From: Pantoea sp. Nvir
Lineage (GTDB): Bacteria > Pseudomonadota > Gammaproteobacteria > Enterobacterales > Enterobacteriaceae
NCBI RefSeq assembly: GCF_009829915.1
Contig: NZ_SZZW01000001.1
Location: forward strand, 372,001-436,000
DNA length: 64,000 nt
Reading direction: 5' to 3'
Each line of letters starts with the position of its first letter. The first letter of the stretch is position 1. The notes beneath the pieces were generated by a model, which did not search any database, was not told where the DNA came from, and saw nothing but the letters and a program-made list of their open reading frames with translations. The translations under genes and the position numbers were made by a program. Shown here one piece after another: positions 2,891-6,119 of the stretch.

Positions 2891-2902
2891 TATTAGTATT
2901 GA

Positions 2903-2941
2903 AAATAAATCTTCGTATTTTAATATGAATTAAAATTCAAA
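2903..2941 (+). promoter_or_regulatory. ArgR operator: one perfect and one degenerate ARG box
   Basis: Bases 2924-2941 contain TGAAT-TAAA-ATTCA, a full match to the 18-bp ARG box (wnTGAATwwwwATTCAnw). A weaker half-matching box occupies 2903-2920, separated by exactly 3 bp (taa), the tandem spacing used by the ArgR hexamer. It sits just upstream of the argI ribosome site, as in enteric argI/argF. Whether argR itself still exists cannot be seen here. Confidence 0.7.
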
Positions 2942-2967
2942 GAAACCTAATCTACTGGAGCATATTC

Positions 2968-3978
2968 ATGATGAGTCCATTGTTTCAACGACACTTCCTT
3001 CGGCTTCTAGATTTTACACCGACTGACATTATTTACCTGCTTGACCTCGCTGCTGAATTAAAGATAGCTAAAAAAAAAGGTAAGGAGACCCAGCGCTTAA
3101 AAGGTAAAAATATTGCGCTCGTTTTCGAAAAAAAATCAACCCGCACGCGATGCTCTTTTGAAGTTGCCGCATACGATCAAGGAGCTAACGTTACCTATCT
3201 TGGTTCAAGCGGCAGCCAGACTAGCTATAAAGAGTCTATAAAAGATACCGCACGGGTACTTGGTCGAATATATGACGGTATCCAATACCGCGGTTATGGA
3301 CAAGTACTAGTAGAGACGCTAGCGAAATTTGCCGGTGTTCCGGTATGGAACGGACTTACTACTGAGTTTCATCCCACTCAGATACTTGCGGATCTCATGA
3401 CCATAAAGGAGCATCTGCCAAGAAAAGATTTTAGTGAAATAACACTTGTCTACGTTGGCGATACGCGCAACAATATTGGCAACAGCATGATGGAAGCTGC
3501 AGTAATCACTGGTCTAGAACTACGTCTAGTCTCTCCTAAAAGTTTCTGGCCGAAACAAGCGATAGTCGAGCAGTTCCGACAAGTAGCTCAGAATACTGGT
3601 GGTCAGATTATTCTGACAGAAGATATCGCTGAAGGTGTCATGGGTGCAGATTTTATCTACACCGACGTGTGGGTTTCTATGGGTGAAGATAAAGCGGCGT
3701 GGAAAAACCGTATAGCGCTTCTACGCAACTACCAGGTAAACCAAGCGATGTTACTACTAACCAGTAACCCAGAGGTAAAATTCATGCACTGCCTGCCTGC
3801 TTTTCATGACGCCCAGACGACATTAGGTCGCCAGATAGTTGAACAATATGGTCTGCACGACGGTATAGAAGTAAGCAACGAAGTATTTGAATCAGAACAC
3901 AGCATTGTGTTCGATCAGGCGGAAAATCGCATGCACACTATTAAGGCGGTAATGTTGGCAACGCTCAATCAAGGGTAA
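2968..3978 (+). CDS. argI: Ornithine carbamoyltransferase
   Basis: Converts ornithine and carbamoyl phosphate to citrulline in arginine synthesis. The protein (336 residues, usual length 334) carries the carbamoyl-phosphate motif STRTRCSF near residue 56, the HPTQ motif in the middle and the HCLPAFHD motif near residue 272 that holds the catalytic Cys. GGAG at 2957 precedes two adjacent ATG codons (2968 and 2971); the E. coli N-terminus favours the second, giving 335 residues. An ARG box lies directly upstream. It is followed by the pyrBI leader rather than by other arginine genes, so the pathway depends on genes elsewhere or on a partner. Confidence 0.96.
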
Positions 3979-4010
3979 ACTGTATTGTAAAATTTGTAAC
4001 CTTTTTACCC

Positions 4011-4052
4011 TTGATGCAAATTACCAGACGCATATATTGCGTCGCAATTTGC
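4011..4052 (+). promoter_or_regulatory. pyrBI promoter with UTP-sensitive initial transcribed sequence
   Basis: A -35-like TTGATG (4011-4016), 16-nt spacer and -10-like TATATT (4033-4038) lead 7 nt later to AATTTGCC at 4046, followed by GGAGG. E. coli pyrBI initiates at the same AATTTG, where UTP-driven reiterative transcription on the three T residues aborts transcripts. Nested inverted repeats (GCAAATT/AATTTGC around GACGCA/TGCGTC) overlap the site. Functional assignment rests on similarity to the E. coli promoter. Confidence 0.65.
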
Positions 4053-4064
4053 CTGGAGGGCAGC

Positions 4065-4223
4065 ATGCAGCAACATGGTCTACATGTCAAAACAAAAGTT
4101 ATGCCTGAACATATGCGGCTATCATACCTCTTTCCATCATTAATTAATGGATCGTCAAAAAGCTCCTTACCTCTCCTTACCTTAAGTAGAGTATTTTTTT
4201 GTCCGAAATTCGGCAGCTCATAG
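4065..4223 (+). CDS. pyrL: pyrBI leader peptide
   Basis: A 52-codon leader preceded by a strong GGAGGG (4055-4060) and ending in TAG that abuts the pyrB ribosome site. It resembles E. coli PyrL in its middle (LSYLFPSLINGSS against the LPFFFPLI segment) and in VFFCP near the end, where the FFC codons are written by the run of seven T that terminates the attenuated transcript. In E. coli translation of this leader couples ribosome position to UTP level and so sets read-through into pyrBI. It could also start at upstream ATGs, but only 4065 has a good ribosome site. Confidence 0.7.
   Translation: MQQHGLHVKTKVMPEHMRLSYLFPSLINGSSKSSLPLLTLSRVFFCPKFGSS
4168..4200 (+). terminator. pyrBI attenuator (weak hairpin plus T7)
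   Basis: Seven T at 4194-4200 follow a poor stem (TAcCTCT paired with AGAGTA, loop of about 13 nt). Position inside the 3' end of pyrL and 32 nt before pyrB matches the enteric attenuator, but the GC-rich stem has been eroded, so termination may be inefficient. Confidence 0.5.
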
Positions 4224-4232
4224 GAGCAATCT

Positions 4233-5168
4233 ATGGTTAATCCATTATATAAAAAGCATATTATTTCTATAAATGATCTCGATCGAGACGAATTGGAGCG
4301 TGTGCTGTATACAGCAGCACAGCTGAAAGCCAACCCCCAGCCGGAGTTGCTGAAGCATAAGGTAATTGCAAGCTGCTTTTTTGAGGCCTCAACACGTACG
4401 CGCCTATCATTTGAAACCGCTATTCACCGCCTAGGAGCTTCAGTAGTGGGATTTGCCGATAGTAGCAACACCTCGCTTAGTAAAAAGGGCGAAACTTTAG
4501 CTGATACTATTTCTGTGATCGGTACTTACGTTGATACCATTGTTATGAGACATTCGCAAGAAGGCACAGCGCGACTTGCCACTGAATTTTCCGGTGGCGT
4601 ACCAATATTAAATGCAGGCGATGGAGCAAACCAGCATCCCACGCAAACTCTGCTGGATCTTTTTACTATTCGTGAAACACAGAGCCGCTTGGATAATTTA
4701 AGTATCGCTATGATTGGCGACCTAAAATATGGCCGCACAGTACACTCTCTGGCGCAAGCATTAGCGAAATTCGACGGTAATCGCTTCTACTTCATTGCTC
4801 CTAACACGCTATCAATGCCTGCCTACATTACCGATATGCTAGATGAGCATGGTATAGTTTGGTCACACCACAATAGCATAGAAGCAGTAATTCCGCATGC
4901 AGATATCCTTTATATGACCCGTGTACAGAAAGAGCGTCTAGATCCATCAGAGTATGCCAACGTTAAAGCACAATTTATCCTACATGTAGAAGATCTAGTA
5001 GGTGCACGTAATAACATGAAGGTGCTACATCCTCTACCACGCGTTGATGAGATCGCTATTGAAGTAGATAAAACCCCTTATGCCTGGTATTTTCAGCAGG
5101 CCAGCAACGGCATTTTTGCACGACAGGCTCTTTTAGCGTTAGTACTTAACAGCGAATTGAATCTGTAA
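4233..5168 (+). CDS. pyrB: Aspartate carbamoyltransferase, catalytic chain
   Basis: Catalyses carbamoyl phosphate plus aspartate to carbamoyl aspartate, the committed step of UMP synthesis. Full length (311 residues, as in E. coli), with STRTRLSFE near residue 53, the KKGET 80s-loop region, HPTQTLLDL near 135 and HPLPRVDEI near 266. GGAG ten bases upstream supports the ATG at 4233. It is followed 16 bases later by pyrI, so the holoenzyme can be allosterically regulated. It shares the carbamoyl-phosphate fold with the adjacent argI product but keeps the aspartate-specific residues. Confidence 0.97.
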
Positions 5169-5184
5169 GGAGTAAATTATTTCT

Positions 5185-5649
5185 ATGACTCACGACAATA
5201 AACTGCAGGTAGAAGCAATTAAGCGTGGCACAGTCATTGACCATGTTCCAGCACAGATTGGGTTTAAGTTGTTATCGTTATTTCGCTTTACTGAAACTGA
5301 CCAGCGCATTACCATTGGTCTTAATCTTCCGTCCGATAAAATATTTCGTAAGGATTTGATCAAAATTGAAAATACCTTCTTAACTGATGATCAAATTAAC
5401 CAGTTAGCAGTCTATGCACCGCACGCTACGGTCAACCGCATTTACGATTATGAAGTGGTAGCAAAGATCGCTCCTGCTCTACCCGATTGCATCGAGCGTG
5501 TCCTGAGCTGCCCGAATAGCAATTGCATCAGTTGTAATGAACCGGTCTTCTCCAGTTTTACAGTGAAAAAGCGAGCCAAAGAAGTTATACTCACTTGTAA
5601 ATATTGTGAGAAAGCCTTTGCACACTACGTAGTACTCAGTAATTGGTAA
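5185..5649 (+). CDS. pyrI: Aspartate carbamoyltransferase, regulatory chain
   Basis: Zinc-binding regulatory subunit that binds CTP/UTP/ATP and assembles PyrB trimers into the c6r6 holoenzyme. 154 residues against 153 in E. coli. The N-terminal nucleotide-binding domain ([15 protein letters not shown]) is highly conserved, and the four zinc ligands are present as CPNSNC near residue 110 and CKYC near residue 138. An additional Cys (SCNEP) lies close to the cluster. Retention implies feedback control still matters despite genome reduction. Confidence 0.97.
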
Positions 5650-5732: not shown

Positions 5733-6119
5733 ATGTATCGAGAAATTAATACAGCAAAAGCGCCTGCTGCGATCGGTCCCTATGTTCAGGGTATAAATTT
5801 AGGTAAGATAGTCATTACCTCTGGCTAGATTCCTATTAATCCGACAACCGGCACGGTAGCGGACGATATCTCTGTTCAGGTACGTCAATCACTAGAAAAT
5901 GTAAGAGCGATCGTTGAAGCCGCTGGTTTGCAAGTAAGCGATATTATCAAAACTACAGTCTTCGTTAAAGATCTCAATGATTTTAATATCATAAATGCTA
6001 CTTATGAGTCTTTTTTTATTGAGCATAACGCTAGCTTCCCGGCACGTTCCTGTGTGGAAGTAGCGCGTCTTCCAAAAGATGCAAAAATTGAGATCGAAGC
6101 GATAGCGCTGCGCGGTTAA
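5733..6119 (+). pseudogene. ridA: ridA (2-iminobutanoate/2-iminopropanoate deaminase) with one in-frame amber codon
   Basis: The frame from ATG 5733 to TAA 6119 encodes a full-length RidA (128 codons) apart from TAG at 5826-5828, codon 32. E. coli has Gln there (SGQIP becomes SG-stop-IP), consistent with one CAG to TAG transition. The rest is well preserved, including the C-terminal FPARSCVEVARLPKD signature, so the break is recent, tolerated by suppression or read-through, or a sequence error. Located directly after pyrI as in E. coli. RidA clears reactive enamines made by PLP enzymes. Confidence 0.85.

Follow-up and report, generated by a model that had tools for sequence, protein, structure and literature searches.

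In the pyrBI operon of Escherichia coli, a classic example from the textbooks, a single metabolite is read by two controls. Whether both controls can persist in an eroding genome is the question raised by a Pantoea symbiont of stink bugs with a reduced genome, for whose pyrBI control region the first-pass annotation had proposed that both layers of UTP control, a slippery start and a leader attenuator, may survive. In this work, we compared this region, which lies in a stretch of 64,000 nucleotides analyzed as a whole (the window; GC content about 42%), with its counterparts in the genus group that includes Pantoea, in wider relatives and in other reduced genomes. With a probability of roughly 0.68, the sequences point to an attenuator that has been lost and an initiation-level UTP control element that has been kept. 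The original proposal would thus stand, at the sequence level, for the slippery start and fail for attenuation, the stem being lost.

Layout of the pyrBI locus

The genome that contains the window is reduced (1,425,354 bases in 11 contigs), and the nearest named match of its PyrB is that of Pantoea latae (90%). In the window, an argF-like gene is followed by the leader, pyrB, a pyrI-like gene and a ridA-like gene, names that are in part our own assumption. The following features are referred to below:

2968–3978, + strand: argF/argI-like gene (open reading frame; weak paralogous match to PyrB), whose product we take from its sequence to be an ornithine carbamoyltransferase
4011–4016, + strand: -35 box TTGATG, the same in all seven nearest relatives, 16 nt from the -10 box
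4033–4038, + strand: -10 box TATATT (TATAAT in the seven nearest relatives), 7 nt from AATTTGCC
4046–4053, + strand: predicted slippery start site AATTTGCC, 7 nt past the -10 box, placed by homology
4055–4059, + strand: leader Shine-Dalgarno sequence (SD) GGAGG, read directly
4065–4223, + strand: leader open reading frame at the pyrL position, 52 codons, ATG at 4065 and stop TAG at 4221–4223
4162–4167, + strand: GCTCCT, complement of the pyrB SD AGGAGC; a possible SD-sequestering pairing, not significant
4163–4182, + strand: 10-bp tandem duplication (CTCCTTACCT twice) within the 5' arm of the one-time attenuator, from repeat check and alignment
4171–4191, + strand: residual weak hairpin of 4+4 pairs with one mismatch, by folding not distinguishable from chance
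4194–4200, + strand: T7, the U-tract retained from the one-time attenuator (direct reading and alignment)
4201–4227, + strand: segment after the T-run plus the pyrB SD (AGGAGC, 4222–4227), from alignment; 84% identity over 4201–4221
4233–5168, + strand: pyrB, intact, 311 aa
5185–5649, + strand: open reading frame of 154 aa, open, taken from its position to be pyrI-like

The elements named in the first-pass annotation (TATATT, the 7-nt gap, AATTTGCC and GGAGG) all lie where it had placed them, and the VFFCP codons, GTA TTT TTT TGT CCG at 4191–4205, do contain the T7. The start that it had put at 4011 falls on the TTG inside the -35 box, and the plausible leader start is the ATG at 4065. An Rfam scan of 2900–5400 returned no family at E values up to 5. 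Further downstream, the ridA-like gene (5733–6119) has an in-frame TAG at 5826–5828 after 31 codons, yet its later sequence still looks ridA-like, which leaves three readings: a pseudogene, read-through of the stop or an error in the sequence.

A conserved promoter with a predicted slippery start

Generic promoter matches between 3900 and 4300 were not above shuffles (2 against a mean of 1.3), which makes the generic promoter/terminator scan uninformative relative to them, and the composite pattern TATAWT-N7-AATTTG had one perfect match in the 64-kb window and four with at most one mismatch (2.4 expected). Because such matches are near chance, the case for the start rests on homology, which we grade as strong. 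In all 61 genus genomes searched, the window genome included, TATAAT or TATATT followed by 7 nt and NNTTT lies upstream of pyrB; the start reads AATTTG in 56, ACTTTG in three, AGTTTG in one and AATTTT in one. The expectation that AATTTG be kept in relatives was thus borne out, the TTT run being present in 61/61, although the five members with other starts count against a reading in terms of initiation control. Among 80 named wider relatives, a set that overlaps the genus one, AATTT was found in 57, GATTT in 8, CGTTT in 5 and other starts in 4, and 6 had no pattern. At the start predicted from homology, at least three T residues lie a few nucleotides after the -10 box, as in promoters of the pyrBI type that undergo UTP-sensitive reiterative transcription. 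According to PMC6245113, stuttering depends on the T-run, on the base that initiates and on the spacing, with more of it from an 8-bp spacer than from one of 7; the spacer of the window genome is 7, the same as in E. coli, which we also count against that reading.

Conservation was judged against the fourfold sites of pyrB, which are close to saturation (30–35% identity to the seven nearest relatives). From the -35 box to the leader ATG, the mean identity to the same relatives was 76%. As a control for AT bias, fourfold GC sites served as the reference, by Fisher test, for GC sites unanimous in the seven relatives: 35/53 of the fourfold sites had changed, against 4/20 of the sites from promoter to ATG (p 0.0005). 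Unanimous AT sites had changed at 2/22 positions in the promoter segment and at 5/31 in the leader body. Since AATTT consists of A/T sites, which rarely change under the mutation bias of this genome, the fact that it is retained says little about function by itself. By these comparisons, the promoter, the AATTTG start, the leader SD and the leader ATG share their ancestry with the corresponding elements of other Pantoea, and they and the 7-nt spacing are better conserved than neutral change would leave them.

The same promoter might be conserved as a constitutive one, with no regulation left and AATTTG held in place by AT bias and promoter geometry. That AT sites hardly change in the lineage, that ACTTTG and AGTTTG are tolerated in relatives and that the element is mostly lost in other reduced genomes would all fit, but we consider this rather improbable, as AATTTGCC keeps 93% mean identity to the seven relatives, with a change at 0/6 unanimous sites and the 7-nt spacing preserved exactly, and AATTT is also kept at carAB.

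Loss of the attenuator stem

In the other genus members, the attenuator stem is GCCCC/GGGGC, as AAAAAAGCCCC-loop-GGGGCTTTTTTTTG or near variants. A terminator hairpin of -9.8 to -15.5 kcal/mol is present in 60/60 of these genomes and absent only in the window genome, and 79 of the 80 named relatives have a hairpin of -8 or better plus a T-run within 330 nt upstream of pyrB. At the stem position, the window genome reads AAAAAGCTCCTTACCTCTCCTTACCTTAAGTAGAGTATTTTTTTG. As aligned, the damage comprises the 10-bp duplication in the 5' arm, substitutions and a deletion, with TAGAGTA now in place of the GGGG arm; both duplication and stem decay are known from one genome assembly, and an assembly error may lie behind the damage.

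A covariance model built from 26 attenuators scored 13.9 bits on the window (E 0.23 over 64 kb), where the A-run and the U-run were the only parts to be matched, and the next hits in the window, at 12.6 and 12.3 bits, define its background. With filters off over 301 bases, the best match reached 13.2 bits, again without the stem. Ten same-genus relatives scored 39–52 bits, most of them, or sequences identical to them, being in the training set of the model. Within the stem, 5/9 unanimous GC sites had changed (p 0.4 against fourfold sites, from few sites). What defines a pyrBI attenuator is a stable, GC-rich hairpin followed by a T-run, and here the T7 is present and the stem lost. The stem had originally been called weak; a fold of chance-like stability, a model score at background and the retention of the stem in 60/60 relatives indicate instead that the pyrBI attenuator is lost, beyond merely weak.

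A weak AU-rich terminator could nevertheless keep some activity. That both UTP layers are still working, with the 4+4 hairpin and U7 as a weakened, AT-adapted attenuator under leader translation, would account for a U7 that is retained and conserved, a residual hairpin 2 nt before it and a leader frame open through both. We regard it as distinctly improbable: the hairpin, when folded, gave -3.8 to -4.8 kcal/mol, a value equalled by 29/200 shuffles; the covariance model scores at background; the his, thr and leu terminators of the same genome keep -15.7 to -17.9 kcal/mol; and a strong pyrBI hairpin persists in six further reduced genomes, the smallest of about 0.6 Mb, which means that AT drift does not make its loss inevitable.

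The leader frame and the pyrB translation start

The SD-bearing leader frame (4065–4223) covers the one-time hairpin and encodes a peptide of 52 aa, MQQH...VFFCPKFGSS, ending at a TAG. Among the 61 genus leaders, 50 stop upstream of the T-run, mostly after 33 codons and ending in KKAP, 10 read through it and one is short. FFCP occurs in 3/61, the window genome among them. In the alignment, indels that include a +1 insertion put the leader of the window genome out of frame with its nearest relatives, and VFFCP is what the T-run and GTCCG encode in the shifted frame; the motif is therefore probably a by-product of the T-run and not inherited. We ruled out VFFCP as a conserved leader motif, given these counts, and VFFC, unlike AATTTG, is not conserved in the relatives. 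In the leader body, 16/29 unanimous GC sites had changed (p 0.23), a rate not distinguishable from that of fourfold sites, and in sequence comparison no constraint was detected on either leader body or stem.

The T-run and the following GTCCGAAATTCGGCAGC, behind the dead attenuator (4194–4221), are 84–98% identical to the seven relatives and vary little in the genus. From the T-run to the pyrB ATG, 4/17 unanimous GC sites had changed (p 0.0025). Conservation of the T7 and the segment after it would be unexpected had the attenuator simply been abandoned. The segment 4194–4221 is perhaps part of the pyrB translation start, and the leader stop TAG overlaps the pyrB SD. The site comparisons indicate that constraint acts on the start region and on the ribosome-binding region of pyrB.

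A rewiring of the leader, in which GCUCCU of the one-time 5' arm pairs with the pyrB SD AGGAGC and a leader ribosome stopping at the TAG opens it, that is, translational coupling in place of attenuation, seems very remote, for although the pyrB SD has a mean pairing probability of 0.95 against 0.12–0.80 in 12 relatives, whose SD letters partly differ, and the fold of 4155–4230 has a z of -2.75 (2/200 shuffles equal), pairing of the SD was no weaker in 23/300 leaders whose 5' part had been shuffled, and SD-like motifs readily pair with CT-rich stretches.

The two layers in other reduced genomes

From 392 genomes, we chose 36 that measure at most 2.7 Mb and match PyrB strongly. The pyrBI hairpin is kept in six of them, none used for training the covariance model: G209 (41 bits), G134 (26), G136 (30), G272 (27), G352 (18, with an E of only 0.06) and G187 (29). 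A strong hairpin also lies far upstream in G135 and G271, but without a match to the model. In the six hairpin-keeping genomes, the scan recognised no AATTT behind a -10-like box; at the start position, G134 has a longer T-run, CATTTTTC. The 1.4-Mb genome G246 keeps a TACAAT...AATTTGCC start and its hairpin was not found, as in the window; it belongs to the same family under another genus label (g180), and differs from the window genome in its -10 box and leader. G127 has a possible AATTTGCG start. A convincing AATTTGC at the right place is thus found in 1 to 2 of the 36, AATTT matches in very AT-rich genomes being inseparable from chance; PyrB matches were partial and starts uncertain in G421, G275, G355 and G476, and that of G216 is broken by stop codons. 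The two pyrBI layers appear to decay separately, and in either order.

As a separate observation, the loci L116, L118, L119 and L121, from genomes of 0.6–0.8 Mb, keep the pyrBI hairpin with no AATTT start recognised, the opposite of the window.

Other leaders and pyrimidine genes of the same genome

Upstream of pyrE, 9/10 relatives have the hairpin AGGCGACCAGAGAGTCGCCT or a near variant followed by a T-run (interrupted by C in two), whereas the rph-pyrE attenuator is absent upstream of pyrE in the window genome; in G014 (2.4 Mb), the pyrE T-run is eroded. At the P1-like promoter upstream of carA, the window genome has TAGAAT, 6 nt and AATTTA (AATTTAA). Six of the seven relatives examined there have AATTTG 6 nt after a -10-like box (AATTTGCC in five, AATTTGCA in G041), and G014 has GATTTAC. 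At this place, the E. coli carAB P1 transcript is described in PMC6245113 as starting with GUUUGC.

Amino-acid leaders were checked in the window genome. The terminator of the his attenuator has -17.9 kcal/mol and its Rfam His_leader score of 86 bits is over the cut-off of 49; for thr, the values are -16.4 kcal/mol and 51.9 (Thr_leader, just under the cut-off of 55), with no threonine-rich leader peptide recognised in the region, and for leu -15.7 kcal/mol and 39.4 (Leu_leader, under the cut-off of 50). The genes downstream of the thr and leu leaders we take, from their protein starts, to be thrA and leuA. Upstream of trpE, which is intact, there was no Trp_leader match and no hairpin better than -4.2. 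The trp leader is therefore a case of loss outside UTP control, and a clean rule by which amino-acid attenuators are kept and UTP ones lost was rejected as too strong, with Thr and Leu under their cut-offs as well. General terminator decay is an unlikely cause, given the stems kept at his, thr and leu. A window-wide scan does not settle that point: hairpins of -8 or better with a T-run numbered 5 on the + strand, against 1–5 in five shuffles, and 10 on the - strand, the shuffle control being for the + strand only.

It is possible, if doubtful, that UTP sensing has moved from termination to initiation, with both UTP-controlled attenuators examined (pyrBI and rph-pyrE) lost, slippery AATTT starts surviving at carAB as well as pyrBI, and amino-acid attenuator terminators still in place at his, thr and leu. 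If true, genome reduction would dismantle the layers of one circuit in an order set by what the host buffers.

A model for pyrBI control in the symbiont

The best reading of these comparisons is that UTP control of pyrBI has probably retreated to initiation. In line with it, AATTT is kept at carAB, the rph-pyrE attenuator is gone as well, and the his, thr and leu terminators of this genome are still strong. At high UTP, RNA polymerase would stutter at AAUUU and abort, and pyrBI transcription would fall, as in E. coli; at low UTP, the polymerase would escape the start. After escape, no terminator would stop it, so that the leader and its ribosome would no longer gate pyrBI. Basal pyrBI expression would be expected to be raised and the UTP range narrowed. 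The start site, the stuttering and the read-through of this model are deduced from the loss and the constraint that we observed in the sequence. The pyrBI locus thus separates two controls by natural decay, one removed and the other apparently constrained, and together with the six reduced genomes in the opposite state it allows one to test, by comparison and with simple reporter constructs, which of the layers can be dispensed with.

Comparison with known systems

Loss of attenuation has precedents in such genomes: Buchnera makes no use of attenuation systems, according to PMC3091783, and PMC4122931 catalogues how amino-acid operons and their leader elements have eroded in Serratia symbiotica. 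Among the open-licence PMC matches listed, no title or abstract start dealt with pyrBI control in this symbiont; no open-licence PMC paper on reiterative transcription in symbionts was found, nor was a split between the two pyrBI layers in that literature.

The window resembles E. coli pyrBI in the -10 box, the 7-nt spacing, AATTTG, the leader SD and frame, and a T-run near pyrB. It differs in that it is without the GCCCC/GGGGC stem, its leader stops on the pyrB SD and its peptide is unlike that of E. coli except for FFCP: E. coli pyrL ends in AFFCP through the T-run, and the window has VFFCP there, in a frame that arises from the T-run. In the intact E. coli attenuator, as described in passages of PMC4824070 and PMC5021804, the leader ribosome coupled to RNA polymerase prevents the terminator hairpin. 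The predicted control mode, a slippery T-run at the start only, is that of E. coli carAB P1, codBA and upp, for which PMC6245113 describes UTP-dependent reiterative transcription. The window state differs from theirs in being derived by loss from a two-layer ancestor, with the leader frame still present. To our knowledge, codBA and upp are without such an attenuator. The other 60 pyrBI leaders of the genus share the layout of the window, but every one of them keeps the terminator stem.
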